A DNA stretch of 22,456 bases from a virus, in IMG/VR virus record IMGVR_UViG_3300020436_002698, positions 1 to 22,456 of that record; one strand, 5' to 3'. The notes below the pieces were generated by a model that saw only the letters and a program-made list of their open reading frames with translations, searched no databases and had not been told where the DNA came from. Positions 1 to 16,126 of this stretch are shown piece by piece. Position numbers and translations under genes: made by a program. Position 1 is the first letter of the stretch, and each line of letters starts with the position of its first letter.

Positions 1-390
1 AGTGTTAGTGTCAGTTTAAGTAAAGCACTAGGAATGGGTAGTCAAAGAATTGGAATACGTTATACCCATACTCCACCCCTTGGACCAATAAAAATAATGA
101 ATGATTTTAATTATGCTAATGTTAGTGATATGTGGATAGGTATGGGAGCTATGAAACATTTTGGCGTAGATTTTTGGTGGAATAATTATGAAAATTTATA
201 TGAAAAAGTTTGTAAAGATTTTAATCTAATTGAATGTGATAGTATACATATAGGTATGTTAGATGAAGGAAGACATGGCATAAATCCTTATGGAATTAGA
301 ACACCTTTAAGATTTTTAATTGATGGTATTTTTGATGATAGAGGAACAGATAAGAGTTTGAATAAAATTGAAATTGAGGAAAGAAAATGA
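1..390 (+). CDS. Unidentified protein, C-terminal part (5'-truncated by window edge)
   Basis: The frame is open from base 1. Its first in-window ATG is at 34, but sense codons continue upstream to the edge, so this is most likely the C-terminal 129 residues of a longer protein. I do not recognise a family. It is rich in Gly, Asp and aromatic residues (for example a DFWWNNYENLY stretch). It has no obvious membrane segment and ends in a charged tail (KIEIEERK). Its TGA overlaps the ATG of the PP-loop gene by 4 bases (ATGA, 387-390), so it is the upstream, translationally coupled member of the biosynthetic cluster and probably acts in the same pathway. If 34 were the true start it would be a 118-residue protein. 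Confidence 0.6.
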   Translation, partial: SVSVSLSKALGMGSQRIGIRYTHTPPLGPIKIMNDFNYANVSDMWIGMGAMKHFGVDFWWNNYENLYEKVCKDFNLIECDSIHIGMLDEGRHGINPYGIRTPLRFLIDGIFDDRGTDKSLNKIEIEERK

Positions 391-1133
391 ATATTAATGA
401 TATAATGTTTAATCATTTTGAAAAAGAATATGATGTAACAAACGAAAAAGTTACAGTTGGCATGAAACTTAGCGGTGGTGCTGATAGTGCTATTGTTTAT
501 TACGCATTGTGTAAAAGATATGAAAAAAATGATAATGTTAATATTGTTGTATTAAGTTTGGATACAAGTAGAAAATGTTTTTATTCTAGGTATGCTAAAA
601 GAGTAATTGATATAGTAGGAAATATGACAGGTAAATATCCTGTAGAACATATGACAAAATACATTGAACATTGGCCGGATGGTGGTGATTCTTCTCCATA
701 TAGTCTTGGCCAAAATAAATTACTTAATAAAGCAACAGAAAAATATAATGTTAAATATTGTTATTCTGGTTTGACAAAAAATCCAGACATTGATGACATG
801 ATAGAATACTTTGAAAAGAATCATGAGAAGCATGGTTTAGATTTAAAAAGAATATTAAAAGCTATAGCAGAAAGGGATTCAAATAGAGATCAAGATCTTG
901 GACTTTATGATGGATATCGACCTTTTGGAAATAGTGACAAATTAGCGGTATCCGCACAATATAGATATTATGAAAATCTTGGTATACCATTACTTAATGA
1001 GTTATTTCATAATACAGATAGTTGTGAAGAACATGATAGACATTTAGATATTGGTGAGGATGAAGATCCTGTTCATTGTGGACATTGTTGGTTTTGTGCA
1101 GAACGTTGGTATGCATTTGATAGAATTATATGA
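387..1133 (+). CDS. QueC-like PP-loop ATPase (first copy)
   Basis: This 248-residue protein belongs to the N-type ATP pyrophosphatase (PP-loop) superfamily. The signature SGGADS lies at residues 29-34, where it binds the ATP phosphates. The C-terminus carries TDSC followed by CGHCWFC and ER-W-AF, matching the four-Cys zinc site of 7-cyano-7-deazaguanine synthase (QueC). Family members adenylate a carboxylate or similar group for attack by ammonia or another nucleophile. The insert between these motifs does not look like standard QueC, and no QueD or FolE gene is in the window, so a preQ0 role is not established. A GAGGA ribosome site at 376-380 precedes the ATG. Both ends overlap neighbours by 4 bases. 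A second, divergent copy lies at 2949-3746. Confidence 0.85.
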   Translation: MNINDIMFNHFEKEYDVTNEKVTVGMKLSGGADSAIVYYALCKRYEKNDNVNIVVLSLDTSRKCFYSRYAKRVIDIVGNMTGKYPVEHMTKYIEHWPDGGDSSPYSLGQNKLLNKATEKYNVKYCYSGLTKNPDIDDMIEYFEKNHEKHGLDLKRILKAIAERDSNRDQDLGLYDGYRPFGNSDKLAVSAQYRYYENLGIPLLNELFHNTDSCEEHDRHLDIGEDEDPVHCGHCWFCAERWYAFDRII

Positions 1134-1786
1134 TAATTAATATAGACCTGGACATTCAATATCATAGAAAACAGTGTTCTGAATTGTTAAAAAATTCAAA
1201 AAAGATAAGTGGACTAAAAAATCATAATAAATTTGTTAAAGTAAAAGACCTTAAATATTTTAGATCTTTGATTGAAAATATAACAAACCAAAAAGGATTA
1301 GATTGGAATTTTGAATATTTTCATAGTGGAGAGCCCGTTGGTTTGCATTCAGATGATGATATTGTTCCGTGGGATGACAAAACATCATGTGAAATATTAC
1401 AAAGTATAATCATTCCTTTAGAATGGAATTGTAAACAACCATATACATTACTCTATGATAAAATAAATTCAATATCTCGAAAAATGATTTTTAGAAAAGG
1501 TGAAATGAGATATTCAGATAATAATGAAATTGTTGAATATAGAAAACATTGGAATTTTGATGATGAAGTTTTAAAGTACAATCCAAAGGGAACTAGATAT
1601 TACAAAGAGTATGCTGATTTAAAATTACATGAAGTATATCCTTGGAAGATCAACACAGCAATTTTGTTTGAATCGTCAAGGTGGCATAGTAGTAGTTGGT
1701 GGTTATCTGAAAATGATATCCCTGATATATCTACTGAATGGAAAAGAAGTATAATTGGATTTGGTTCGAGGGATATTCCAAAATGA
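1130..1786 (+). CDS. 2-oxoglutarate/Fe(II)-type oxygenase (copy A)
   Basis: This 218-residue soluble protein has the signature of the 2-oxoglutarate/Fe(II) dioxygenase (double-stranded beta-helix) fold. An HxD iron-binding pair sits at H73-S-D75 in the context GLHSDDD. The distal iron ligand is probably H186 (ESSRWHSS), and R206 (EWKRSII) is a candidate for binding the 2-oxoglutarate carboxylate. Such enzymes hydroxylate or desaturate small molecules, lipids, nucleic acids or proteins; the substrate cannot be read from sequence. It sits between a QueC-like PP-loop gene and a radical SAM gene with 4-base overlaps on both sides, which argues for one pathway. It shows little similarity to the three other oxygenases in the cluster beyond the metal site. 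Confidence 0.75.
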   Translation: MIINIDLDIQYHRKQCSELLKNSKKISGLKNHNKFVKVKDLKYFRSLIENITNQKGLDWNFEYFHSGEPVGLHSDDDIVPWDDKTSCEILQSIIIPLEWNCKQPYTLLYDKINSISRKMIFRKGEMRYSDNNEIVEYRKHWNFDDEVLKYNPKGTRYYKEYADLKLHEVYPWKINTAILFESSRWHSSSWWLSENDIPDISTEWKRSIIGFGSRDIPK

Positions 1787-2952
1787 ATTTTACGTCAATT
1801 AATCATGTTGAAGATGAAGAATTTTCTGTTGTATGGGATCTTGGAAGAAGATGTACCTACGCTTGTTCTTATTGTGGACCACATCACAGTAATAAAACAT
1901 CCCCGATGGTTAATATGGATGAGTTAAAATACACAATTGATGGGATTGTTGAATATTCAAATTTATTAAATCAATATAGAATAAAACCTAAAAATTTAAA
2001 TATTGCATACACAGGTGGGGAACCAACAATTCATCCTGCTTTTTTTGACTTTGTACGTTATACAAAAAGTAAATATCCTTTTATCACAAGTAATATCACA
2101 ACAAATGGATGTTTTAGTAAAACAAAATGTAAAGAAATAATAGAATGTGTGACAAATACAACAATTAGTTATCATACAGAAGCGACTGAAAAAGAAAAAC
2201 AAATAGTAAGAAATAATATAAAATTTATGTCAGATGTTGGATACAATTTTAGAATTAATTTAATGTTTCATAAAGATTATTTTGATGAGTGTATAATAAT
2301 TGCTGATTGGCTTGATGAAATGGGTATAAAATATACGCCTAGACCTATAGGTGATAGTGGAAATAAACAAGACATTCTAGATGGTACTGCTCATGTATAC
2401 AGTAAAGAACAACTGTCATGGTTTTCAAATTATTGGAAAAAAGGTAAAAAAACAGAAATAAAAAGTAAAACTAAAAATGAAGAATTAGCAACTAAAAAAA
2501 TAGGAAGAACTTGTTGTAATGGAAAATGTTTAAATGTTAAAATTGATAATAAATTTTTTAAACAAACTTATGTTCCAAGTACAAATTTTCAAAGTTGGAA
2601 TTGTATGATCAATTGGGATTTTTTATTTATAAACAGTGAACTTAACGGTGTGTGGCATCATCAAACTTGTCAAGTAAATTTAGATGGACATATCGGCCCA
2701 ATAGGAAAAGCAAGTGAATTTGAAAAGATTATAAGAAATTTGAAAAAAAAATTAAGTAGTGGAAAAATGCCAGTAATCAAATGTCCAAAGACTTTTTGTG
2801 GATGTGGATTATGTAGTCCTAAAGCATCACAAGAAAATGATGCAAAAAAAATATTTGAAAGTAGAACAAAATATCTTGAACCTGTATTTCAAAAAAAAGT
2901 CAAGGATATAAGTAAAGATGAAACAATATATGGAAGGTTTATTGGATTATGA
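1783..2952 (+). CDS. Radical SAM protein with Cys-rich C-terminus (first copy)
   Basis: This 389-residue radical SAM enzyme has the 4Fe-4S motif CxxxCxxC at C24, C28 and C31 (CTYACSYC). The GGEPT S-adenosylmethionine-binding motif is at residues 78-82. The C-terminal third holds many cysteines (TCCNGKC, then single Cys residues, then CPKTFCGCGLC), suggesting one or two auxiliary clusters as in SPASM or twitch-domain proteins. I chose the ATG at 1783 because it gives a 4-base ATGA overlap with the preceding oxygenase; an upstream in-frame ATG at 1738 would overlap by 49 bases and add 15 unrelated residues. The downstream PP-loop gene also overlaps by 4 bases. The family does radical chemistry such as C-C bond formation, epimerisation or thiolation; the substrate here is unknown. 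Confidence 0.88.
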   Translation: MNFTSINHVEDEEFSVVWDLGRRCTYACSYCGPHHSNKTSPMVNMDELKYTIDGIVEYSNLLNQYRIKPKNLNIAYTGGEPTIHPAFFDFVRYTKSKYPFITSNITTNGCFSKTKCKEIIECVTNTTISYHTEATEKEKQIVRNNIKFMSDVGYNFRINLMFHKDYFDECIIIADWLDEMGIKYTPRPIGDSGNKQDILDGTAHVYSKEQLSWFSNYWKKGKKTEIKSKTKNEELATKKIGRTCCNGKCLNVKIDNKFFKQTYVPSTNFQSWNCMINWDFLFINSELNGVWHHQTCQVNLDGHIGPIGKASEFEKIIRNLKKKLSSGKMPVIKCPKTFCGCGLCSPKASQENDAKKIFESRTKYLEPVFQKKVKDISKDETIYGRFIGL

Positions 2953-3746
2953 AAAACTTATATAAAAATTTAAATTTAGATAATTTTATTTTAGATGATA
3001 AGTATGGTGTAATAGTTCCAATTTGCAAAAACTGGAAAAAAATTGGAATAAATCTAAGTGGCGGAGCTGATAGTGCCATGATGACTTGGATACTTTGTCA
3101 AACAATTATAAAGTACAACTTAGATATTACAATTGATATAATTACATTCAATCGTAATTATATTTTAAAACCTTGGCAGGGTTTTTATAGTTTAAGGATC
3201 TATAATTGGTTCAAAGATCATTTCAATAAAATTATTTCTGAAAGAATAGAAACTTATGTTCCACCAGAACTTGAACATAAAAAATCACCTAATTTATTAA
3301 ATGGAAGGTCTGGTGATCAAATTATTATAGAAAGTTTTAATAAATTTTTAATATCAAGCAAAAAAATTGATGCAGTGTATAATGCTACAACTAAAAGTCC
3401 GCCAATAGAAGGGGGTATGTTAAATAGATATCGCGATCCTGAGTTGAAAGATTTAATTAACAGAAAACAAACTGAGTTCAATTCTTTTAAAGGTATAACA
3501 AAAGATCATATTATTAAAATTTATTATGATTATAACTTGCATGAACTTTTAGATTTAACTAGAAGTTGTGAGATTAATATTAAGAATTTAGACTTTGATG
3601 AATACATAGAAGGTACGTTGGTTCCTACATGCAATACAATAAAAATGATCCGGTTCAATGAATATGTTGTGAAAATGTCTGAAAATTTTAAATGTTGGTG
3701 GTGCAAAGAACGAAACTGGGCAATTAATGTTGTTAAAAATTTATAA
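2949..3746 (+). CDS. QueC-like PP-loop ATPase (second copy)
   Basis: This 265-residue PP-loop ATPase has SGGADS at residues 37-42. As in the copy at 387-1133, its C-terminus has TRSC, a further Cys (PTC) and a terminal CWWCKERNWA, recalling the zinc-binding end of QueC. The cysteine spacing is looser than in canonical QueC. The two copies share only the ATP motif and the C-terminal Cys/Arg/aromatic pattern, so they are old paralogues with probably different substrates. The start overlaps the preceding radical SAM stop by 4 bases, and a second radical SAM gene follows after 5 bases. The pairing is reminiscent of queC-queE, but this is an inference from gene order. Confidence 0.82.
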   Translation: MKNLYKNLNLDNFILDDKYGVIVPICKNWKKIGINLSGGADSAMMTWILCQTIIKYNLDITIDIITFNRNYILKPWQGFYSLRIYNWFKDHFNKIISERIETYVPPELEHKKSPNLLNGRSGDQIIIESFNKFLISSKKIDAVYNATTKSPPIEGGMLNRYRDPELKDLINRKQTEFNSFKGITKDHIIKIYYDYNLHELLDLTRSCEINIKNLDFDEYIEGTLVPTCNTIKMIRFNEYVVKMSENFKCWWCKERNWAINVVKNL

Positions 3747-3751
3747 ACAAA

Positions 3752-4780
3752 ATGGACTTCACAAAAATACCTTTTGAAGATATTCAACTTGTGGGAACAA
3801 AAACTATGCTTCATCAAGATACATTTACAGTATCTTGGTTACTTGGCAGATTTTGTAATTATAAATGCACATATTGTTGGCCTTATGCTAGATCTGATAA
3901 AAAAGATCATAGACCAACAGAACTATGTTTTGAGACAATTGATGAAATAAAACAACAAGCAAGAAAACAAGGATTTAATTCTTTTAATTGGTCTTTGTCT
4001 GGTGGTGAACCTACTTTTCATCCTGGGTATTTGGACATATTAAAATATCTTGCAGATGATAATGATAATTGTAAGAGACAGAGAATTCACATGACTTCAA
4101 ACTGTTCCAGAAAAATAAAATGGTTTGAGACATATGTTAAACATGCAAAACAATTTGATAGAGCATCAATTACAGCTTCTGCACATTTTGAACATTTGAA
4201 TACTCAAGAGAAAGTTGAAGATTTTGCTGATAAGTTGGTTTATCTGCAAAAAATGGGAATAAGAATTACTATCAATATGGTCATGGTTCCTGAAAGATTT
4301 TGGCAATTAGCGGATCATGTTTTATATTTTAAAGAGCGTGGATTGCACACAACACTAAAACCTCAATCCAATTCAACCGCTACAAAAGTAGTAGAGGGAT
4401 ATACAAAAGATCAATTAGATATATTGCATAATGATTCAAAAACATCAACAATGGAAATAGAGTTAATTGATTCAAAAGGAGAAATACATGAAATGGATCA
4501 AGCAGAGCGTTTTAATGCTTTTGAGTTTAATAACTTTAAAGGGTGGATTTGTTCGTCGGGCTATCGTAGTATCATTATACGCGAGCCTTGCGGGAGCATT
4601 AAGCGGTCATATTCTTGCACAGATTTACCTTTAGGCAACATAGAAACAGGTTTTAAATTATTCGATAGTCCACAACCTTGTTTGTCAGATGCTTGTGTAA
4701 GTTCAGCTGATAGCAAAATACCTAAACGTAAACCTGGAGTTAAATTGCCATTATGGCCTGGAGATAAAACATATGTCTGA
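3752..4780 (+). CDS. Radical SAM protein (second copy)
   Basis: This 342-residue radical SAM enzyme has the cluster-binding motif at C35, C39 and C42 (CNYKCTYC) and GGEPTFHP beginning at residue 84. Further cysteines lie in the C-terminal third (near WICSSGY, EPCGSIK, YSCTD, QPCLSDAC) and could bind an auxiliary cluster. Its N-terminal layout (a VSWLLGRFC stretch before the cluster motif) resembles the other radical SAM protein (VVWDLGRRC), so the two are probably paralogues. It follows a QueC-like PP-loop gene by 5 bases, and its stop overlaps the start of the next oxygenase by 8 bases. The 4550-4640 part uses more GC-rich codons than its surroundings, which may only reflect local constraint. 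Confidence 0.87.
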   Translation: MDFTKIPFEDIQLVGTKTMLHQDTFTVSWLLGRFCNYKCTYCWPYARSDKKDHRPTELCFETIDEIKQQARKQGFNSFNWSLSGGEPTFHPGYLDILKYLADDNDNCKRQRIHMTSNCSRKIKWFETYVKHAKQFDRASITASAHFEHLNTQEKVEDFADKLVYLQKMGIRITINMVMVPERFWQLADHVLYFKERGLHTTLKPQSNSTATKVVEGYTKDQLDILHNDSKTSTMEIELIDSKGEIHEMDQAERFNAFEFNNFKGWICSSGYRSIIIREPCGSIKRSYSCTDLPLGNIETGFKLFDSPQPCLSDACVSSADSKIPKRKPGVKLPLWPGDKTYV

Positions 4781-5402
4781 TTTTAATTTATATAATATTA
4801 CATTAGCATATGGTGATCAAATAAAATTAGATTTATATCAAAACAGTTCAATTGTATCTAAGTTGGAACAATTTGATAATGATTGGGTAAAATATAATCC
4901 TAGAAAAAACATAAATCGATGGGGATTAAGTGTAACCAATTTGAATGGTAAATTTGGTTCTGGACCTGATTTAGATAGTCTATATGAATATAATAAAGAA
5001 AATAAAACCAGTTATAATGAGATGGATTTCAATATACCAACACCAGCGTATAATATAGTATCTAAATATTGTGATCCTTTTAAAGAATGGTTATTTAGAA
5101 CACATTTTATTAAATTAAAACCCGGAGGTTTTTTTCCAGACCATGTTGACAATATTGGACCAAATATAAATAGCTTTAGATTGATTGTTCCAATTGAAAC
5201 ATTGAATTCTCTTGATGATGGATATTTTATATATGATGAAAAAATATTGCAATGGAGATATAATCAACTTTATTTTTTAAATACTTGTAAACGTCATACA
5301 GTTTTTAATGCTAATTCAGATAAAGATTCAATCTTTTTGGTTATGAATCTTAAATTAACAAAAGAATCTGTTTGTAAAGTTACTAATTTAATAATACCAT
5401 GA
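4773..5402 (+). CDS. 2-oxoglutarate/Fe(II) oxygenase, aspartyl/asparaginyl hydroxylase-like (copy B)
   Basis: This 209-residue protein has HxD at H124-V-D126 in the context PGGFFPDHVD, followed by a FRLIVPI strand. A distal histidine, H175, lies in NTCKRHTVFNA. The pattern PGG-x-x-x-x-HxD followed by R-x-I-V-P is typical of the aspartyl/asparaginyl beta-hydroxylase-like branch of 2-oxoglutarate oxygenases, which is common in marine T4-like phages. The substrate is unknown. The start overlaps the radical SAM stop by 8 bases and the stop overlaps the desaturase start by 4 bases, so it belongs to the same transcription and translation unit. Confidence 0.8.
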   Translation: MSDFNLYNITLAYGDQIKLDLYQNSSIVSKLEQFDNDWVKYNPRKNINRWGLSVTNLNGKFGSGPDLDSLYEYNKENKTSYNEMDFNIPTPAYNIVSKYCDPFKEWLFRTHFIKLKPGGFFPDHVDNIGPNINSFRLIVPIETLNSLDDGYFIYDEKILQWRYNQLYFLNTCKRHTVFNANSDKDSIFLVMNLKLTKESVCKVTNLIIP

Positions 5403-6154
5403 ATAAAAATTTAAATAAATATGGATTATTTGCATTTCAAATATTTTCATATATTTGTTTTATATACTCATTATCTATCCTAAATTTAAATCATTATTTA
5501 ATTTCTTTTTTGGTTTATTTTATTATTTTTGGATTGGGAATTGTAATAGGTTATCACAGATTATTAAGCCATAAATCATTTAAAACATCGTATGAAAAAA
5601 TATTAAGTATACTAGGTTGTTTAGCTTTTCAAGGAAGTCCTTTAGTGTGGGTTTGTTTGCATAGGGAACATCACGCATACACAGATACAAAAAAAGATCC
5701 ACATTCACCAGTTAATGGATTTTGGAAAAGTTTTTTTACTAGTTCAATATCTGAAACAAATCCAAGATTGATAAGAGATATGTTAAAAAATAAATTTCAT
5801 TTATTTTTGTATAAATATTATTTTGTTTTAATGAGTGTTTATATTTTATTGATGTCATTATTAGGAATTGAAATGTTTTTAACATTGTGTGTCATTCCTA
5901 TATGTTTCTCTTGGATAGGTGTAAATTTGGTAAATTCTGTTTGTCATTCTTATGGATATAAAAATTATAAAATAAAAAATGAAAGTACTAATAATACTAT
6001 AGTTGCTTTATTAACATTTGGTGAAGGTTATCACAACAACCATCATCATCAACCATCAAATTACAACTTTGCAAAAAAATGGTTTGAATTTGATTTATCA
6101 GCTTTAATTATAAAATGTTTAAGTATATCGCCCAATCCCTCAAAGGGTCTTTAA
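5399..6154 (+). CDS. Membrane fatty-acid (acyl-lipid/acyl-CoA type) desaturase, copy A
   Basis: This 251-residue integral membrane di-iron desaturase has three histidine boxes: H53-x4-H58 (HRLLSH), H88-x2-HH (HREHH, residues 88-92) and H212-x2-HH (HNNHH, residues 212-216). The boxes and the hydrophobic stretches around residues 12-50 and 140-185 match the stearoyl-CoA/delta-9 acyl-lipid desaturase family, although it is shorter than bacterial members (usually about 270-320). It would sit in the host inner membrane and introduce a double bond into acyl chains, changing fluidity or supplying a modified lipid. Lipid desaturases are known in cyanophages. The start overlaps the previous oxygenase by 4 bases; the stop lies 40 bases inside the next small ORF. 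Confidence 0.9.
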   Translation: MNKNLNKYGLFAFQIFSYICFIYSLSILNLNHYLISFLVYFIIFGLGIVIGYHRLLSHKSFKTSYEKILSILGCLAFQGSPLVWVCLHREHHAYTDTKKDPHSPVNGFWKSFFTSSISETNPRLIRDMLKNKFHLFLYKYYFVLMSVYILLMSLLGIEMFLTLCVIPICFSWIGVNLVNSVCHSYGYKNYKIKNESTNNTIVALLTFGEGYHNNHHHQPSNYNFAKKWFEFDLSALIIKCLSISPNPSKGL

Positions 6155-6423
6155 GAGTACTATCAGTAAATCCTTTATCATACTACAATAAATATATTAA
6201 AGATCAACAAGTTCCTGAAATTTATAAAAATTTTGAATATATTGAATTTGACAGTCCATTAAAGTATAATGAGATTGATAGTAAATGTCCATTTATTTTA
6301 TATAACAAAGTTTGGATAATTGAATTGAAGGTTAGTGATTTGTCTAATCAAGAAAAAGAAATATATAATCTTCATAAAAAAGTTAAACATAAAAAAATGC
6401 CTTGGTGGAAAAATGAAATATAA
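6115..6423 (+). CDS. Small unidentified protein, 102 aa
   Basis: I do not recognise this protein. It is 102 residues, Lys- and Tyr-rich, soluble, and ends in a basic patch and a Trp pair (KKMPWWKNEI). The only ATG that opens the frame is at 6115, giving a 40-base overlap with the desaturase and no clear ribosome-binding site; this makes it less certain than its neighbours. In its favour, the interval from the desaturase stop to the next start would otherwise be an unusually long 258-base gap in this compact cluster. Its stop also overlaps the next gene's ATG by 11 bases. Confidence 0.6.
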   Translation: MFKYIAQSLKGSLRVLSVNPLSYYNKYIKDQQVPEIYKNFEYIEFDSPLKYNEIDSKCPFILYNKVWIIELKVSDLSNQEKEIYNLHKKVKHKKMPWWKNEI

Positions 6424-7312
6424 ATTAGGAAAAACAAAAAGACATTTTCCATTTGTTCTAAGATACAAACTTAAAAATTTTGATTATCTTCAAAGAACAT
6501 GCTTAGATATTATATCTAAAGTTGATGAAACTTTCATGTCACAATTTAATGATGCTGAAAAAATAATTAGAGATGAAGAATTTTTTAAAGAAAAAAATGA
6601 TAAATATGGATCATCTTTTTGTTATCCAAATAATAATGGAAAAGAAGCATATTTAGAAGAAACAAAAAAATATGATTCTGACAGTAAGTTTCAACTAAAT
6701 GGTGTTGATGGAACAAATTTTGTTAAAAGTAATCAAGCGATTTACGGAAACTATTCAGTTGTAGCTTTTCAAGAAATAAATGATGAATTAGTTGAACTTT
6801 CTAAGAACATTGAATATAATGAAAATTCCACTCCTTTTCAAAGACAGAGAGGAATGATTACATTAAAGCCACCATACTATCACCCCAAGTATGATGAAAG
6901 ATCATATACTAAATTTACTCCATTTGCTTCTAATGATGTCAAAAATTTTTTGTCAAATTTTAGTCCATATAAAGAACAATCATGTAGAAGTTCTTTGGTC
7001 AAATTGAATCCTGGTATGTATTTAAGTCCTCATTGGGATATGGGTCCTGAATTTTGTTCAAGATTTCAAATACCAATTGTTGCGAATAAAAATATGGAAA
7101 TGGGATTTAGAAAAAACAAAAATCATCAATGGAATGTATATAAGTTTGAAGAAGGATATGCATATTTTGTAAATACAGGGTATGAACATTATGCTAGAAA
7201 TGATGATGATAATACAAGATATCAAGTTAGGGTTTGTGTAATTGGACAAAAACTACTTAATAATTTTGAAAAAATTGATTGTAATTATTTAAAAAATGAG
7301 TGGAATGAGTGA
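6413..7312 (+). CDS. 2-oxoglutarate/Fe(II) oxygenase (copy C, long N-terminus)
   Basis: This 299-residue protein has its oxygenase signature in the C-terminal third. HxD is at H207-W-D209 (LSPHWDMG), the probable distal ligand is H259 (GYEHYARN), and R269 (TRYQVRV) probably holds 2-oxoglutarate. The first 140 residues are mostly hydrophilic and have no motif I can name. I chose ATG 6413 (MKYKLGK) because it follows a GGTGG-like ribosome site and avoids a Lys/Ile-rich 26-residue extension from 6335 that runs through the preceding gene. The gene lies between a desaturase block and an SDR gene, in a continuous run of overlapping genes. Substrate unknown. Confidence 0.78.
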   Translation: MKYKLGKTKRHFPFVLRYKLKNFDYLQRTCLDIISKVDETFMSQFNDAEKIIRDEEFFKEKNDKYGSSFCYPNNNGKEAYLEETKKYDSDSKFQLNGVDGTNFVKSNQAIYGNYSVVAFQEINDELVELSKNIEYNENSTPFQRQRGMITLKPPYYHPKYDERSYTKFTPFASNDVKNFLSNFSPYKEQSCRSSLVKLNPGMYLSPHWDMGPEFCSRFQIPIVANKNMEMGFRKNKNHQWNVYKFEEGYAYFVNTGYEHYARNDDDNTRYQVRVCVIGQKLLNNFEKIDCNYLKNEWNE

Positions 7313-7844
7313 TGTTATAATTACAGGGCATACATCAGGTATAGGTAAATCATTATATAATTTTTTCACTCCAGGTTGTATTGGTCTTAGTCGCTCGACT
7401 GGATTTGATATTACAAAAGATGATTTCAATTGGCATGGTGATGTTTTTATAAACAATGCAATCAATTTAAAATCATATGAGGGTATGTTTGGTCAAGTTA
7501 GAATGTTTTGGCAAGCTTGGAAGTTGTGGAGAAAATTTACAGATAGAACTATTGTCAACATTGGATCAATATCTATAGATTATCCAACTTCTCCTACATA
7601 TTTGCAAATGATGTATGCTTCTTCAAAATCTGCATTAGCAAATGCTTCTAAAAGTTGTCAGTATATTGAAAATGGTCCAAGGGTAATTCATGTAAAATTA
7701 GGAGCAGTTGATACACCTTTAATTAAAAATTATAATATGCCTAAAATGCCAGTTGAAGAAATAACTGATGCAATACTTGATGCTCTTGATAATAGATATT
7801 GTTTTGAAATAGATCTTAGTCCCAGAGGATTTAGGAATGATTGA
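7305..7844 (+). CDS. Short-chain dehydrogenase/reductase (SDR)
   Basis: This 179-residue Rossmann-fold oxidoreductase has the nucleotide-binding TGxxxGIG motif (TGHTSGIG) within residues 7-14, INNA at residues 49-52, a catalytic Ser near residue 88 (NIGSIS) and the Y104-x3-K108 pair (YASSK). It is much shorter than the usual 240-260 residues, because the loops after the cofactor domain and the C-terminal substrate lid are trimmed; this is common for phage SDRs. The substrate could be a sugar, lipid or small alcohol/ketone. I preferred ATG 7305 over 7296 because a GAG/GGA ribosome-like stretch lies just upstream of it; both overlap the end of the previous oxygenase. Confidence 0.82.
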   Translation: MSDVIITGHTSGIGKSLYNFFTPGCIGLSRSTGFDITKDDFNWHGDVFINNAINLKSYEGMFGQVRMFWQAWKLWRKFTDRTIVNIGSISIDYPTSPTYLQMMYASSKSALANASKSCQYIENGPRVIHVKLGAVDTPLIKNYNMPKMPVEEITDAILDALDNRYCFEIDLSPRGFRND

Positions 7845-8439
7845 AGTTATAAATTATGATCCTAAGCACCATGAAGATTTACTAGAAGAATTTTTTCAAT
7901 TGCCTGGATTACCTGAAAGAAATAGTAATAAAAAATTTTTACACTATGATAAATTGATGGATGATGGAGTATTACTATTAGTTAAATATAAAAATAAAGT
8001 CAAAGGTATGGAGTGTTGTTTATTTAATACTGAAGATGACGGAACATATTGGGCAAAGTTTCCTTGGAGAACATTGCATCATAAAATGCCTTATTTTCCA
8101 AGATATCATTATGAACAAAAAATTTATGATGAAATTGCAAAAAGAAAAATAACTAAGATAGCAACATTTTATAATGTGGGAACTGATTATAATAAAAGAA
8201 TAAATCGTACAATAAGATACACACAAAAATACCAAAAAAATTATGTAGATAAGTTATCAGATGTTAGTAAACTTTATTTACCATATTGGAAGAAATATCA
8301 TAAACAAGTATTTGAATCCTATACATGGTCAGTACCAGTTTATTGTAATTTAATAGATGGTAAATGGTTTTTAAAAAGAGAAGAAAAGGAAATAAATGAT
8401 GAACATCAAATTAATTTCAAACCTCATACCTTTTACTGA
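7837..8439 (+). CDS. Unidentified protein, possibly GNAT-like
   Basis: This 200-residue soluble protein cannot be assigned confidently. The N-terminus (a short beta strand, a helix around residues 10-20, then LLLVKYKNKVKGMECC around residues 45-60) is weakly reminiscent of the first strands of GCN5-related N-acetyltransferases, but I do not see a clear acetyl-CoA-binding Q/R-x-x-G-x-G/A motif. The C-terminal half is rich in Tyr, Lys and Trp. A TTAGGA ribosome-like site precedes the ATG. The start overlaps the SDR stop by 8 bases and the end overlaps the second desaturase by 44 bases, so it is embedded in the biosynthetic operon. Confidence 0.7.
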   Translation: MIEVINYDPKHHEDLLEEFFQLPGLPERNSNKKFLHYDKLMDDGVLLLVKYKNKVKGMECCLFNTEDDGTYWAKFPWRTLHHKMPYFPRYHYEQKIYDEIAKRKITKIATFYNVGTDYNKRINRTIRYTQKYQKNYVDKLSDVSKLYLPYWKKYHKQVFESYTWSVPVYCNLIDGKWFLKREEKEINDEHQINFKPHTFY

Positions 8440-9190
8440 ATATTTTAAAATAGTATTATTTCATCTATTTTTTTTTATAGTTTTAGTTAAGTATGTACCA
8501 TTAATGTTATTATTACTTGGTTTTATATGGAGTACTATTGTTTGGATTAGTTTTGATATATCTTTTCATAGAATGTGGTCGCACAAATCGTTAAGTTGTC
8601 CAAAATATATGGAATGGATTTTTAGTTTCATAAATGTTTTTACTGGTATGAAAAGTGCTATTGACTTTTGTGGTCCACATATTTGGCACCACAAATATTC
8701 AGATACAAAAAAAGATACTAATTGGCCAGAAGGCATGCCAATTTGGAAAATAATTGTTCAACATAAAAGCGTATATTATAATGTTAATAAAACAGAAATG
8801 CTTAAAATGTGTAAACATTTATTAAAAAATGATACTGTCAAATTCTTTCATAGATATTTTTATTTCATATTTCTTGCATTACATATAGTATTAGTTTTTA
8901 TAAATCCCATACTAATCATTCCAATTATTTCTATACCTGTACTATTTGCATATATGATTATTATTCCTGGAGGTGCTCTACTTCAACATACATGGGGTGA
9001 AAAAATTTACACAGATAAATCCTCAAATAATAAATTACTTTCATTTATCAGTTTAGGATTTTTATGTCAACATAGCAATCATCACAAACATCCTTATAGT
9101 TATACATTTGACACTGATGGTGATGCATTTGATTTAATTGGAGTCATAATAAAAAAAATGAATGACTATAAACTTGTCACTATTAAATGA
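8396..9190 (+). CDS. Membrane fatty-acid desaturase, copy B
   Basis: This 264-residue membrane desaturase has three histidine boxes: H58-x4-H63 (HRMWSH), H95-x2-HH (HIWHH, residues 95-99) and H226-x2-HH (HSNHH, residues 226-230). Hydrophobic segments at about residues 15-56 and 150-195 give the usual two hairpins that place the di-iron centre on the cytoplasmic face. It is clearly different from the desaturase at 5399-6154 outside the boxes, so the two probably act on different acyl positions or lipids. AAAAGGA upstream supports the start; ATG 8396 or the adjacent ATG 8399 are both possible. The stop overlaps the next oxygenase by 4 bases. Confidence 0.88.
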   Translation: MMNIKLISNLIPFTEYFKIVLFHLFFFIVLVKYVPLMLLLLGFIWSTIVWISFDISFHRMWSHKSLSCPKYMEWIFSFINVFTGMKSAIDFCGPHIWHHKYSDTKKDTNWPEGMPIWKIIVQHKSVYYNVNKTEMLKMCKHLLKNDTVKFFHRYFYFIFLALHIVLVFINPILIIPIISIPVLFAYMIIIPGGALLQHTWGEKIYTDKSSNNKLLSFISLGFLCQHSNHHKHPYSYTFDTDGDAFDLIGVIIKKMNDYKLVTIK

Positions 9191-10211: not shown

Positions 10212-10880
10212 TTACCATCCTAATTCTTTCATCTTAGTAGGGTCTGCACAAGTAATTGTAGATTCACCAGTAACTTCTTTTGTCGGTAGCTCTTTATCAT
10301 ATCCTATTTTTTTTAAAAATGCTTGATTGGTGATTGGTCTTCCATGACCCACTTCATAGGTTTCACCACCAATTCCTTTTTCAATTAGTATTTTTATTGC
10401 TCTACATACATCATATACGTGAGTAAAATCCCTTTTATGATTAGTTATATAGTTTAATTGATTATTCATTGCTAAACCATATAACATATCAGTTCTATAG
10501 TTTTGTTCACCCCAAACAGTAAAAAACCTCATAATTATCACATTGTCTGGTGCTATGAGTTCACAAGCATATTTTGACATTGAGTATGGACTTTGTAATT
10601 CATGAACAGATGATGTAGAAGCAAATAGTATTTTTGTATCTTTATAATGATCAAATATTCTTTTTGTTATTTTGACATTATTGTTAAAATATGCTTTAGG
10701 ATTTTTATGAGATGATCTTACACCAGTTGATGCCGCAAGATGTATTACACAGTCAACGGGGGGTAATACTGAGGTAAGTACGTCATTGGGATAATCAATC
10801 CCATAAATATTATAATTATTTAAGTAATTTACAAGATTTGATCCTATAAACCCTTTGTCACCAGTGATTAAAACTTCCAT
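10212..10880 (-). CDS. NAD-dependent nucleotide-sugar epimerase/dehydratase (compact SDR)
   Basis: This 222-residue extended-SDR protein has the N-terminal NAD-binding motif GDKGFIG (around residues 7-13), an HLAA motif near residues 47-50, a Ser-rich STSS stretch and the catalytic YSMSK (Tyr-x3-Lys). RFFTVWG and DFTHVYDV follow, the usual substrate-pocket motifs of the UDP-glucuronate/UDP-galactose 4-epimerase branch. It is about 100 residues shorter than cellular homologues, with the C-terminal sugar-binding domain reduced. It probably acts on a nucleotide sugar for surface glycan or phage glycosylation. It is on the minus strand, divergent from the gp13 gene, sharing a 57-base intergenic region. 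Confidence 0.88.
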   Translation of the reverse strand: MEVLITGDKGFIGSNLVNYLNNYNIYGIDYPNDVLTSVLPPVDCVIHLAASTGVRSSHKNPKAYFNNNVKITKRIFDHYKDTKILFASTSSVHELQSPYSMSKYACELIAPDNVIIMRFFTVWGEQNYRTDMLYGLAMNNQLNYITNHKRDFTHVYDVCRAIKILIEKGIGGETYEVGHGRPITNQAFLKKIGYDKELPTKEVTGESTITCADPTKMKELGW

Positions 10881-11685: not shown

Positions 11686-12528
11686 ATGGCAGTATCTACA
11701 TATTTTCAACAAACAGATTTTAAACCAGAACAAGAATTATTAAATGATTTGGTAGAAGAAACAATTCAGATTCATGGTTTGGATGTGAGTTATATGCCAA
11801 GAACTTTAATAGCAACTGATAATTTGTATAGTGAAGATGTTGCTTCAAAATTTACAAAAGCATATTCAATAGAAATGTATGTTGAATCTGTAGATGGTTT
11901 TGGGGGAGAAGGTGATATTATTGGTCAATTTGGAATTGAAGTAAGAGATCAATTAAGTTTAGTTGTTTCACAAAGAAGATGGGATGATATGGATATCCCA
12001 GATAGAGTAAGACCATTTGAAGGTGATTTAATTTATTTTCCATTAAATGATAAATTATTTGAGATAAGATTTGTTGAACATGAAAAGATTTTTTATCAAT
12101 TAGGAAATTTACCATTGTATGGATTAACTTGTGAATTGTTTGAATATAGTCATGAAGATATTGATACTGGTATTGCAGAAATTGATGATATAGAAAAAGA
12201 TTATGGTTATGGTATGGATCTTGTTTTTGCGTCAGGTTCTGGAAATTTTGAAATTGATGAAACTGTTACAAATGGAACTGCCACTGCAAAAGTAACATCA
12301 TGGGATTACACAAATAAAACATTAAGAGTTGGAAACATAGTAGGTACAATAACATCAGCTTCAGCAGTCGTTGGTGGTACTAGTGGTGCTTCTTGGAACA
12401 TGACAGCAACACCAAATACTCAAGTGTTTACAACTGATACTTATGCTAATAATTATGGTATACAAACTGAAAGTGATTCTATTTTTGATTTTACAGATAA
12501 AGATCCATTTTCTGAAGGGCAATATTAA
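11686..12528 (+). CDS. 14: T4 gp14-like neck protein with inserted beta-rich domain
   Basis: This 280-residue protein is the T4 gp14-type neck protein that works with gp13 at the head-tail junction. The N-terminal part (TYFQQTDFKPEQELLNDLVEE) and the middle (VSQRRWDD, RPFEGDLIYFP, LTCELFEYS, around residues 94-155) are typical, as is the terminal DPFSEG. Between about residues 185 and 240 lies a Gly/Thr-rich segment with short beta-strand repeats (GTATAKVTSWD, LRVGNIVGT, GTSGASW) that is not part of T4 gp14. Such segments recur in structural proteins of marine T4-like phages and may be surface-exposed. It starts 1 base after the gp13 stop and overlaps gp15 by 3 bases. Confidence 0.9.
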   Translation: MAVSTYFQQTDFKPEQELLNDLVEETIQIHGLDVSYMPRTLIATDNLYSEDVASKFTKAYSIEMYVESVDGFGGEGDIIGQFGIEVRDQLSLVVSQRRWDDMDIPDRVRPFEGDLIYFPLNDKLFEIRFVEHEKIFYQLGNLPLYGLTCELFEYSHEDIDTGIAEIDDIEKDYGYGMDLVFASGSGNFEIDETVTNGTATAKVTSWDYTNKTLRVGNIVGTITSASAVVGGTSGASWNMTATPNTQVFTTDTYANNYGIQTESDSIFDFTDKDPFSEGQY

Positions 12529-13415
12529 TGTTTGGAACTTCAACATATCATCAAACTCTTAGAAAAATGGTGATTGCTTTTGGATCACTTTTTAATGATA
12601 TCAATATAAAAAGAACTAATACATCTGGTGTAGTTATAGAAACACTTAAAATACCAGTAGCCTACGGTCCTAAACAAAAATTTATGGTTAGGATAGCAAA
12701 TCCAAGTTTTAAAGGACCAGCAATAGTATTACCTAGAATTGGTTTTATGATGAGTCAAATAATGTATGATGGTACAAGAAAATTAAAAACAACTGGTAAA
12801 AATTATTCATCAATATCTGGAACTGGTAGAACTCAATATAATCCAGTTCCTTATAATTTTATATTTGATTTAGCTATATTAGCAAAAAACGCAGAAGATG
12901 CTGCACAAATAGTAGAACAAATTTTACCAAATTTTACACCAGAATTTACAGTTACAATAAAAACAGTTCCTGAAATGGATGTAAAAGTTGATTGTCCAAT
13001 AATTTTAAATTCTGTTAATTACATTGATTCATATGATGGTGATTTTGAAACAAGGAGAGCAATTTCATGGGACATGCAATTTACTATGAAAGGATTTGTT
13101 TATCCTGAATTATCAACAACTGGTAAATTAATTAAAGATATTAGAGTTGATATTAATATTCCATCTAATTCAATTGAACAAACAATAGGTAATTTTGATA
13201 AAATAATATTAGAGGATAGTACTGATTTTACTATAAATAGTTTATTACAACAAAATGGAACAGATGCACTTTATCTTGAGTCTTCTGATGAAGGATTATT
13301 AGATCTTTCAAACACTGAATCTGTAGGTATAAAGCCAAATCCATTAGATTCAGAACCAGATGATGATTTTGGTTTTAGTGTATCAATTGATGGGACGGAG
13401 ACAGGATGGACATAA
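12528..13415 (+). CDS. 15: T4 gp15-like proximal tail sheath stabiliser / tail terminator
   Basis: This 295-residue protein is the T4 gp15-type tail completion and sheath-stabilising protein, which caps the finished tail and attaches it to the neck. Recognisable parts are the N-terminal FGTSTYHQTLRKMVIAFGSLF, the following IPVAYGPKQKF, the LPRIGFMM segment and YNPVPYNFIFDL. The C-terminal 60 residues are acidic and low in predicted structure (SSDEGLLDLS, EPDDDFGF). The length is close to T4 gp15 (272). The gene order gp14-gp15-gp16 is as in other T4-like phages. Its stop overlaps the gp16 start by 10 bases. Confidence 0.92.
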   Translation: MFGTSTYHQTLRKMVIAFGSLFNDINIKRTNTSGVVIETLKIPVAYGPKQKFMVRIANPSFKGPAIVLPRIGFMMSQIMYDGTRKLKTTGKNYSSISGTGRTQYNPVPYNFIFDLAILAKNAEDAAQIVEQILPNFTPEFTVTIKTVPEMDVKVDCPIILNSVNYIDSYDGDFETRRAISWDMQFTMKGFVYPELSTTGKLIKDIRVDINIPSNSIEQTIGNFDKIILEDSTDFTINSLLQQNGTDALYLESSDEGLLDLSNTESVGIKPNPLDSEPDDDFGFSVSIDGTETGWT

Positions 13416-14163: not shown

Positions 14164-14186
14164 ATTAATTTGAATAAGGATTGTCG

Positions 14187-14645
14187 ATGGCTGAGCAAAA
14201 AAGAAAAGAGCCAGAAGGAGTTGGCCAAGAAGTAATAGAAGGAGGGGAAGTTAAATTTGAACCTGTCAAAAAAATAGAAGAAGATACTTTTGATGCGGTT
14301 AAAAGTCTTAAAACTTTTCTTTTTATAACAATAGGATTGTTGGTATACTTACTGTTTTTAGTAATACCTGGTATTGAAGAAAAAGTAGAGTGGATTGAAA
14401 AAGATCTTACTTCAGTTTTAGTAACTAGTGAAAGATATAAATCAGCAACTAGAGTGTTTGCAAAAGGAAATGAGTGTTCCACTTGTCACCTTGAACCAGA
14501 TTATTTAATTTCTGGACTTCAAGGTACTTACCCAAGTTTTGCTGATTTAAAAGCATTTATGACAATTGGGCATCAGAAATATTATACAATGGCAACACCA
14601 TTACCAGATGAAGAACTGATGAACATTTACAGGGTTCTAAAGTGA
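14187..14645 (+). CDS. Membrane-anchored protein with c-type cytochrome haem motif
   Basis: This 152-residue protein has a hydrophilic N-terminus (about 40 residues), one transmembrane helix at about 42-61 and a C-terminal domain predicted to face the periplasm. That domain contains CSTCH at residues 97-101, the CxxCH covalent haem-attachment motif. M135, in a YYTMATPLPDEEL context, is placed like the distal Met ligand of small class I cytochromes c, and an LMNIYRVL end resembles their C-terminal helix. It would need the host cytochrome-c maturation system and could pass electrons to or from the host respiratory chain. I chose ATG 14187 (AAGGA six bases upstream) over the in-frame TTG at 14181. 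Stop and next start overlap (TGATG). Confidence 0.78.
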   Translation: MAEQKRKEPEGVGQEVIEGGEVKFEPVKKIEEDTFDAVKSLKTFLFITIGLLVYLLFLVIPGIEEKVEWIEKDLTSVLVTSERYKSATRVFAKGNECSTCHLEPDYLISGLQGTYPSFADLKAFMTIGHQKYYTMATPLPDEELMNIYRVLK

Positions 14646-16126
14646 TGATCAAAATCTTTTTTGCTATGATCACTATGTTTTGGATTCTTGGAATATCTCA
14701 AGGATATGTTTTACAAGGATCTGAAATGATTGAGATTGAAGCTCAATTTACTATAAGAAATCGTTTAGATATAGATGCGATGATGAAACTTGCAGGTTAT
14801 ACTCAACGAGGTGATTTTCTGACTGAAATGGAAAAATCAACAGGTGATCGTGATTGGGATCGTAATGTAGAAAAAGGTCAAACTTTTATTATACCATCTC
14901 AACATAAACCAGAGAGACAATTTAATGAAGCAGGTATTAATTACAGAGAGATGATGTCTCTTAATCCCTCACCAGACAATAAAACAGAACCTGAAGTCAA
15001 TTCAATCATAGCAAAAGATGAACTTGATGCTCTTAAAAAAGAATTAGACCGACTTAAAAAAGTTGAACAACAACATAAAATGAAACATATGAGTGAATCA
15101 TATGTGGTTGGTGATGAATATAAACCAAGTTTTAGTTCCACTGTTGATCGAGTTAAAGCACGTGGATATGTTGTATGTGGAACATATGCTGATACTCCTG
15201 GATTTAGTGAAGAATTTTTACAAAGAAATGATGGTCGTGATCCTGGTTGGGATGGTTTTGATGTAGACATTTGTAGAGCATTTGCAGTTGCATTATTTCT
15301 TGATAAGACTAAAATTAAATTCATTCCAATAAATGGAAGAACACGTTTTGAAAGATTGTTTGATGGTTCAATTGATATTTTATCTGCTACAACAACTTGG
15401 ACATTTTCAAGAGATGTAGATTGGAGAATAGAATTTTTACCTACAGTATTTTATGATGGTCAAGGATTTATTGTAAGAAAAAATCTTGGTGTTAAAAGTG
15501 CAAAAGACATGATGAATGCACGAGTTTGTTACAATACTGGAAGTACGGCAGCACAAAATATAAGAGATTTTTTTGATAAATGGCAAATTAATTTTGTTCC
15601 TGTAGCTGTACCACCTACAGATAGTCCAAAAATGTACTATCTTGATAATGATTGTGATATGTATGGAACTGATATGTCAGCATTAGCAGGACATAAAGCA
15701 AGATTTCAATATCCAGAAAGACACATTATACTTCCAGAAATAATATCTAAAGAACCATTAGGTCCAGCAGTAAAATATGGTGATCAACTTTGGTCTGATA
15801 TAACAAGATGGACTGTTAATGTATTGTTTATAGCAGAAGAATTAGGTATTACATCACAAAACATAGATGATTACATGGAAAATATTGATCCAGTAATTCA
15901 AAGATTTATGGGTGAAAGAAACGGTGGTAATACACCAGAAACAGATAATCTTGGTATTAAATTAGGATTAAGTAGTAATTGGAGTATTGAAATTATAAGA
16001 CAAATTGGTAATTATGAAGAAATCTATGAAAAACACGTAGGTCCAAATACAGACTTGGGACTCAAAAGAGGATACAATAAGTTGTATACGGACGGAGGAT
16101 TACTATATGCTCCGCCTCTTAAATAG
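14645..16126 (+). CDS. Secreted amino-acid ABC transporter substrate-binding protein, AapJ/BztA type, with N-terminal extension
   Basis: This 493-residue protein has a signal-peptide-like N-terminus (residues 1-20, cleavage possible after GISQG). Residues about 165-493 match the AapJ/BztA general L-amino-acid periplasmic binding protein end to end: VKARGYVVCG, GWDGFDVDICRA, TTWTFSRD, YDGQGFIVRK, LPEIISKEPLGPAV, RWTVNVLFIAEELGIT and a TDGGLLYAPP end. Cellular AapJ is about 340 residues. The extra residues 21-160 hold a segment ending VEKGQTFIIPS that vaguely resembles a LysM end, and a probable coiled coil at 125-147 (DELDALKKELDRLKK). It could boost host amino-acid uptake or serve as a periplasmic or virion ligand binder. 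ATG 14645 is preferred to the GTG at 14642. Its end overlaps the next gene by 20 bases. Confidence 0.88.
   Translation: MIKIFFAMITMFWILGISQGYVLQGSEMIEIEAQFTIRNRLDIDAMMKLAGYTQRGDFLTEMEKSTGDRDWDRNVEKGQTFIIPSQHKPERQFNEAGINYREMMSLNPSPDNKTEPEVNSIIAKDELDALKKELDRLKKVEQQHKMKHMSESYVVGDEYKPSFSSTVDRVKARGYVVCGTYADTPGFSEEFLQRNDGRDPGWDGFDVDICRAFAVALFLDKTKIKFIPINGRTRFERLFDGSIDILSATTTWTFSRDVDWRIEFLPTVFYDGQGFIVRKNLGVKSAKDMMNARVCYNTGSTAAQNIRDFFDKWQINFVPVAVPPTDSPKMYYLDNDCDMYGTDMSALAGHKARFQYPERHIILPEIISKEPLGPAVKYGDQLWSDITRWTVNVLFIAEELGITSQNIDDYMENIDPVIQRFMGERNGGNTPETDNLGIKLGLSSNWSIEIIRQIGNYEEIYEKHVGPNTDLGLKRGYNKLYTDGGLLYAPPLK

Follow-up and report, generated by a model that had tools for sequence, protein, structure and literature searches.

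What do two QueC-like PP-loop genes and two radical S-adenosylmethionine (SAM) genes, standing side by side in a phage genome, make together? The question arises at the left end of a 22,456-base stretch (hereafter the window; G+C 29%) of IMG/VR virus record IMGVR_UViG_3300020436_002698, for which an earlier note had proposed a phage biosynthetic pathway other than the standard QueC/QueE route. Phage biosynthetic gene clusters are thought rare. Here, our analysis supports that proposal and revealed linkage, and in some cases fusion, between PP-loop genes and radical SAM genes, each from defined subfamilies, in more than 100 viral loci. We tentatively read the four genes (PP1, rS1, PP2, and rS2) as the rightmost part of a large, modular island of biosynthetic genes situated in the host-recognition cluster (HRC) of T4-like marine and freshwater phages; this island would make an amidated, radical-modified block, likely for a surface glycoconjugate.

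A scan with rS2 retrieved at least 181 viral relatives, the best 80 of which were 57-85% identical, and a PP gene lay within 8 kb in 41 of the first 82 loci. Single-PP-sequence scans for close relatives returned one locus (L004) or none, and an alignment was needed; an independent scan of IMG/VR with PP-B, the clade of PP2, yielded 390 confirmed viral relatives. Within 8 kb of PP-B in the best 80 of these 390 relatives, we found Twi, an N-twitch-type radical SAM, in 78/80, rSc2 in 75/80, rS1 in 74/80, and rS2 in 57/80, with rS1 following PP-B directly or after one intervening gene in 78 cases and a pyridoxal phosphate (PLP) enzyme gene (PLPa) preceding PP in 11. Among 161 viral loci, every one of the 120 that bear a PP gene also holds radical SAM genes (median 6 per locus of up to 17 kb), and in four loci (L131, L132, L133, and L140) Twi and PP-B are fused as one protein of 827-832 aa. 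The co-occurrence on which the earlier note had staked its pathway is very strong and extends to gene fusion. Counting to the left and right of rS2 provided an internal control: where phage core genes follow rS2, radical SAM genes account for 156 of the 247 genes on the left (rS2 included) and for 1 of 348 on the right. The linkage counts are approximate, given some near-duplicate contigs, our own profiles, and a soft rS1/rS2 boundary in a second phage group; the left/right contrast is not affected. In many phages, the gene order, which matches that of the Bdellovibrionia loci described below, is GT-A-like, SAM-dependent transferase, a 74-aa open reading frame (ORF), rSc2, rSc2, Twi470 (a Twi of ~470 aa), Twi/PP-B/rS1, and rS2. 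Asp/Asn-hydroxylase-like genes are frequent in the viral loci, and the islands also hold nitroreductases. An island family labeled 'GT22' looks like a SAM-dependent transferase (spermidine-synthase-like, E 0.002) and not a glycosyltransferase. Elsewhere, a second fusion of 643 aa (L182:11227-13158) joins a Twi-type radical SAM to an N-terminal domain similar to an SGNH-hydrolase-like cluster, and an amidinotransferase-like gene (L195, 2958-3675; by eye) follows Twi and PP-A on a contig binned as Chloroflexi.

In the window itself, the two PP-loop proteins with SGGADS and the two radical SAM proteins are present as described, on one strand and in tight succession: the genes between 387 and 5402 (Table 1) overlap by 4 bases, except at one gap of 5 bases and one overlap of 8 bases. 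The PP/radical SAM genes are genuine and closely packed in operon order, and rS1 most likely begins with the ATG at position 1783, which yields an ATGA overlap. The description of these genes as alternating with oxygenases was overstated, as one putative oxygenase is interleaved but the next follows rS2. The interleaved protein had no significant match in Pfam, PHROG, or PDB. The PLP enzyme truncated by the contig edge, whose SxSK......RxG motif is kept across its family and whose profile matches aminotransferases 3if2/3g7q (E 0.002-0.004), is part of the gene set; the whole PLP-PP1-oxygenase-rS1 cassette is found again in L050, with identities of 68, 42, 45, and 59%, respectively (PLP enzyme at 741-1670 of L050). 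Relatives of the Asp/Asn-hydroxylase-like gene lie directly downstream of rS2 in L005, L006, and L050. The island sits upstream of gp14, which is the HRC position of pelagimyophages (PMC7029224), and the adjoining gp15 is ~37% identical to that of Pelagibacter phage Mosig and of cyanophages.

The earlier note had also seen in the two pairs an old duplication, a view that comparison with relatives did not bear out. PP1 and PP2 are ~21% identical, rS1 and rS2 25%, and each of the four belongs to its own widespread subfamily. In trees and best matches, PP1 and PP2 fall in separate widespread clades, A and B (PP-A and PP-B), and rS1 and rS2 in two separate widespread radical SAM clades; the L050 cassette holds the nearest relatives of PP1 and rS1, while those of PP2 and rS2 are in L115/L116 (40-41%) and L005 (85%). 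Judged from these sequences, the pairs appear to be two old families side by side and not the outcome of a local or recent duplication.

Both PP proteins scored under every family cut-off. PP1 reached 18.5 bits with the Pfam QueC model (cut-off 22) and 11.5 bits with the QueC model TIGR00364 (cut-off 150.3 bits), to which PP2 had no match; 11 of 15 PP-A members match TIGR00364 weakly (best 2.5e-6). The likeness to QueC is, however, supported by the fold. In VIA structural comparison, made for the AlphaFold model of PP2 (predicted local distance difference test [pLDDT] score 82), QueC 3bl5 ranked first (Z 15.1, root-mean-square deviation 3.2, 180 aligned residues), with QueC 2pg3 at Z 14.1, followed by TilS, Cap9 (Z 13.4), and others, with QatC at Z 12.3; the alignment with QueC spans residues 29-265 and includes the C-terminal Cys site. 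The P-loop SGGxDS of PP1 and PP2 is kept in 119 of 122 family members and the Cys site C(x)6-45CxxCxxC in 112 of 122. PP1 has its four Cys at C213, C231, C234, and C237, with a first spacing longer than in the C(x)8CxxCxxC of QueC, and PP2 has all four invariant Cys, but with an insertion in the site. The QueC substrate motifs, as defined in PMC13329287, are scarcely found in the family (VPxRN 0/122, YPDC-type 5/122, and YxQ..E, in full YxQxHxxE, 1/122), whereas a phage-borne canonical QueC holds all motifs counted (P-loop, Cys site, VPxRN, YPDC, and YxQ..E). Fold, P-loop, and Cys site of QueC are retained in the PP proteins, and the 7-deazaguanine recognition motifs are lacking. The Tyr and Asp with which QueC and Cap9 read their ligands fall in the substrate-motif region (PMC13279940), and the near absence of these motifs, therefore, makes another PP substrate likely.

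Taken together, the PP proteins share with canonical QueC (PF06508/TIGR00364) the PP-loop Rossmann fold, SGGxDS, the C-terminal C..CxxCxxC, and a PF(x)4K-like Lys motif, but they differ from it in the recognition motifs, in scores far under the family cut-off, and in genomic partners, which are SPASM/twitch radical SAMs instead of QueD, QueE, and FolE. Like QatC (qatABCD) and Cap9 (type IV cyclic-oligonucleotide-based antiphage signaling system, CBASS), they are repurposed QueC folds, and their SCE..CGxCWWC and PF..DK motifs resemble the CE..CxxCxxC and PF(x)4K of Cap9 (PMC13329287). In contrast to both, no QatA/B/D or CD-NTase neighbor was recognized, radical SAM proteins being the partners instead. 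PP1 and PP2 had no PADLOC match (QatC model 12.5 bits, cut-off 280), and the NCBIfam model of N-acetyl-sugar amidotransferases (WbpG/PseA type) did not appear in the matches that 15 PP-A members gave.

The extra cysteines of the radical SAM proteins are well conserved: beyond CxxxCxxC, eight are invariant in rS1 (17 relatives) and four in rS2. The best PDB profile match of rS1 was CteB 5wgg (E 1.4e-8, core domain only), and its core also matches ChlB. The rS2 model (pLDDT 82) matched BlsE (VIA Z 15.9), SkfB (14.6), and CteB (14.2), and further anSME, ChlB, and MoaA; QueE was absent from the 50 VIA matches listed, which by itself does not exclude QueE. A QueE-like role, as the earlier note had considered, is nonetheless not supported beside these SPASM/twitch matches, with rS1 and rS2 at 25.0 and 19.4 bits in one QueE model, far under its cut-off of 260. 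To our knowledge, QueE has no auxiliary Cys set. The twitch subfamily model NF033640 (cut-off 170 bits) was not reached by rS1 (39.8) or rS2 (44.1), and the Twi proteins of the islands are likely members of it. From CxxxCxxC, the C-terminal auxiliary Cys, and, for rS2, the fold, both proteins are assigned to the SPASM/twitch superfamily, with predicted cluster binding. Its radical SAM core and C-terminal auxiliary Cys are features that rS2 shares with BlsE, CteB, SkfB, anSME, PqqE, and MoaA (VIA Z 13-16), although its identity to them is just 10-16% and it has no recognized substrate. We know of no pathway of these six enzymes that is paired with a QueC-like ligase.

A core of rS2, rSc2, and Twi470, often joined by genes for a GT-A-like (family-2-like) glycosyltransferase and a SAM-dependent transferase, is also present in Bdellovibrionia chromosomes. 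At 51-56% identity, rS2 was found in metagenome-assembled genomes (MAGs) of Bdellovibrionia and related bacteria, in 5/5 genomes of one family and 15/144 of the class, mostly as a single copy, with rSc2 and Twi470 as constant neighbors. In L109, the genes around rS2 are trmD- and pheT-like (by eye), which argues for a chromosomal location; a suspected link to phage tail proteins on this chromosome was dropped when tblastn gave no phage match. Other MAG matches (L100-L103 and L113) resemble phage contigs. Half of the Bdellovibrionia rS2 loci hold a GT-A-like gene (VDGDN; PF00535 E 7e-7 in L109), and, in phages as in Bdellovibrionia, genes of this kind adjoin Twi470, rSc2, or rS2. In a single case (L219), the rS2-rSc2-Twi470 core is inside a polysaccharide locus, where AsnB, GT2, an O-acyltransferase, and what by eye is a sugar epimerase adjoin it. 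Among Bdellovibrionia PP-A genes, one lies beside Twi and two (L198 and L199) beside CysC (adenylylsulfate kinase)-, CysD-, and sulfotransferase-like genes.

We favor a surface glycoconjugate as the destination of the product because of the GT-A-like and SAM-dependent transferases, the L219 locus, the sulfotransferase context, and the location between vrlC and gp14, where the glycosyltransferase-rich HRC lies (PMC7029224). In such a pathway, PP1 and PP2 would adenylate a carboxylate of a substrate other than 7-deazaguanine and hand it over to ammonia or an amine, so that an amide-type bond forms, and rS1, rS2, and the Twi/rSc2 enzymes would carry out radical C-H chemistry on a shared scaffold. 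The PLP enzyme may add amino groups and the iron/2-oxoglutarate-type oxygenases hydroxyl groups, and glycosyl- and other SAM-dependent transferases would then link this product to a glycoconjugate at the surface, either of the host envelope during infection or of the virion fiber. The different gene subset of each phage would fit diversification of a recognized surface. With slightly more reserve, we suggest that this may be a categorically new pathway, in which a non-purine QueC-type ligase is coupled or fused to a SPASM/twitch cascade, mainly in uncultured T4-like phages and in Bdellovibrionia, and which would yield glycoconjugates or protein decorations of a new, radical-tailored class.

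Several points weigh against a glycoconjugate. No glycosyltransferase is visible in the window, where only an epimerase was seen, on the opposite strand (10212-10880); the island's left part lies beyond the contig end. The GT-A-like family was detected, with the profile used, in just 25 of 161 viral loci, several Bdellovibrionia rS2 loci are without obvious polysaccharide genes, and the Cys-site insertion may have altered PP2 function. In addition, SPASM/twitch radical SAMs often act on peptides, and QatC and Cap9 on protein N-termini, so that, by analogy, a protein substrate would be the main rival.

On this account, which we consider possible but doubtful, the island modifies a virion fiber, a small phage protein, or a peptide like those ribosomally synthesized and post-translationally modified (RiPPs), with PP acting on a protein N-terminus in the manner of QatC and Cap9, both of which it matches. 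The resemblance of the rS2 model to SkfB, CteB, anSME, and ChlB and of the rS1 core to CteB and ChlB is in line with it, as are the frequent Asp/Asn-hydroxylase-like genes and the location of the island in the fiber region (PMC7029224). Two small ORFs could also be cited in its favor. The conserved 74-aa ORF, with the motif NWYKAVIxWY..YGDLPSKVGPGKD, lies ahead of rSc2 and after the SAM-dependent transferase in ~20 loci (e.g. L119:2800-3024) and has no match in Pfam, PHROG, or phage records; the other, a conserved ORF of ~50 aa (VKEFLEHEL...VIEYLEKRL) ahead of rS2 and near its start in most of L066, L067, L070, L071, L072, and L113, is possibly a small partner protein. However, neither has a Cys-rich core or a leader/core pattern, both are confined to a minority of loci, and the small-ORF census of the islands detected no widespread precursor-like peptide, on which ground the hypothesis of a RiPP precursor was rejected. 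The GT-A-like and sugar-pathway genes that accompany the core likewise speak against a peptide or protein substrate.

It is improbable, in our view, that the island makes a small natural product, cofactor, or signal that remains in the infected cell unattached to the surface. Its toolbox is like that of antibiotic and nucleoside pathways, with BlsE as the best fold match of rS2, a PLP enzyme, nitroreductases, an aminopropyl/methyltransferase-like gene, and the amidinotransferase-like neighbor in L195 (by eye), but no nonribosomal peptide synthetase, polyketide synthase, or export genes were recognized, and the HRC position and GT-A-like genes suit surface chemistry better.

Returning to the QueC/QueE route, standard 7-deazaguanine synthesis in the island is unlikely because a separate canonical QueC exists, the substrate motifs are almost absent, no tRNA-guanine transglycosylase (TGT) was found, and the radical SAMs are SPASM/twitch-like and not QueE-like. 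The three nearest large relatives (L007, L010, and L012; rS2 ~81% identical) carry a canonical QueC above the curated cut-off that adjoins FolE and is separate from the island PP genes. FolE is found in 14/16 long relatives and QueD, in a scattered manner, in 7/36, both away from the island; TGT was not found in 16 long relatives, whose records may be incomplete, and the window holds no FolE, QueD, or TGT. A preQ0- or archaeosine-like modification of DNA or tRNA through divergent QueC and QueE, to which the QueC fold, the Cys site, and these FolE and QueD genes might point, is thus very improbable, also in view of the auxiliary Cys sets of rS1 and rS2.

Sulfur transfer of the ThiI, TtuA, or LarE type appears slightly less probable still: ThiI, NcsA, MnmA, and LarE were among the top Foldseek matches, but the structural re-alignment of PP2 placed QueC first over a span that takes in the Cys site, the Cys pattern is of the QueC type, and no sulfur-relay gene was seen in the window. 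Least probable of all is viperin-like antiviral nucleotide synthesis or another defense against competing phages, as the matches to prokaryotic viperin models (39-44 bits; NF038283, rS1 42.1 and rS2 38.8) are far under the 180-bit cut-off and do not extend past the radical SAM core, additional auxiliary Cys are present, and PP and PLP have no defense-model match.

Radical SAM genes in such phages have been reported previously. A T4-like TARA contig with 12 of them was interpreted as pointing to the use of Fe-S clusters (PMC5332604), and radical SAM cassettes were described in the pelagimyophage HRC (PMC7029224); these phages are like that of the window in kind and in genome position, and many radical SAM genes were noted in them. 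The main texts of both papers, as searched, make no mention of a QueC-like partner, a fusion, the rS2 core, or a Bdellovibrionia counterpart, and in the open-licence literature we found no report of such a partner, of a Twi-PP fusion, of the rS2 core, or of this core in Bdellovibrionia. The superfamily of each enzyme is known, and what is new, within the searches made, is their combination; categorical newness of the pathway depends on its substrate. The QueC scaffold hereby gains a type of partner absent from the 2026 family survey (PMC13329287). The island occurs in hundreds of environmental phage contigs, whereas 50,697 deposited phage records, queried by tblastn with PP1, PP2, a typical PP-B, rS2, and Twi470, gave no close relative. 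It further ties marine phages to bacterial chromosomes, namely those of Bdellovibrionia, which are related to the predatory Bdellovibrio, and makes the purpose of the many radical SAM genes in marine T4-like phages testable. If our reading is true, radical-tailored decoration would be used by viruses and relatives of predatory bacteria alike.

Table 1. Features of the window, with positions and supporting matches or motifs
Feature	Positions	Strand	Evidence
Fold-type-I PLP (aminotransferase-like) enzyme, C-terminal part, truncated by contig edge	1-390	+	SxSK......RxG
PP1, QueC-superfamily PP-loop protein, clade PP-A	387-1133	+	SGGADS, SCE...CGHCWFCAER
Putative Fe(II)/2-oxoglutarate-type oxygenase	1130-1786	+	HxD..H-like pattern by eye; no database match
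rS1, radical SAM, 8 further invariant Cys	1783-2952 (ORF can start at 1738)	+	PF04055 E 1e-7
PP2, QueC-superfamily PP-loop protein, clade PP-B	2949-3746	+	SGGADS; insertion of ~19 aa within CxxC of Cys site
rS2, radical SAM, twitch-like C-terminus, 4 further invariant Cys	3752-4780	+	PF04055 E 3e-16
Asp/Asn beta-hydroxylase-like oxygenase	4773-5402	+	PF05118 E 0.006, under cut-off
gp14 (T4-type neck protein) and gp15 (tail-sheath stabilizer)	11686-13415	+	PF11649 E 2e-38, PF16724 E 6e-71

To the right of rS2 (5399-9190), the metabolic region continues with a short-chain dehydrogenase/reductase-like gene, further oxygenase-like genes, and two desaturase-like membrane proteins (5399-6154, PF00487; 8396-9190, by resemblance). 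Amid the phage late genes, a CCA-adding or poly(A) polymerase-like protein (PF01743, PF12627) is encoded at 19296-20942. A pair of genes at 14181-16126, read by eye, is odd for a phage late region: the first encodes a small membrane protein that has a CxxCH heme-like motif, and the second a periplasmic solute-binding-like protein.

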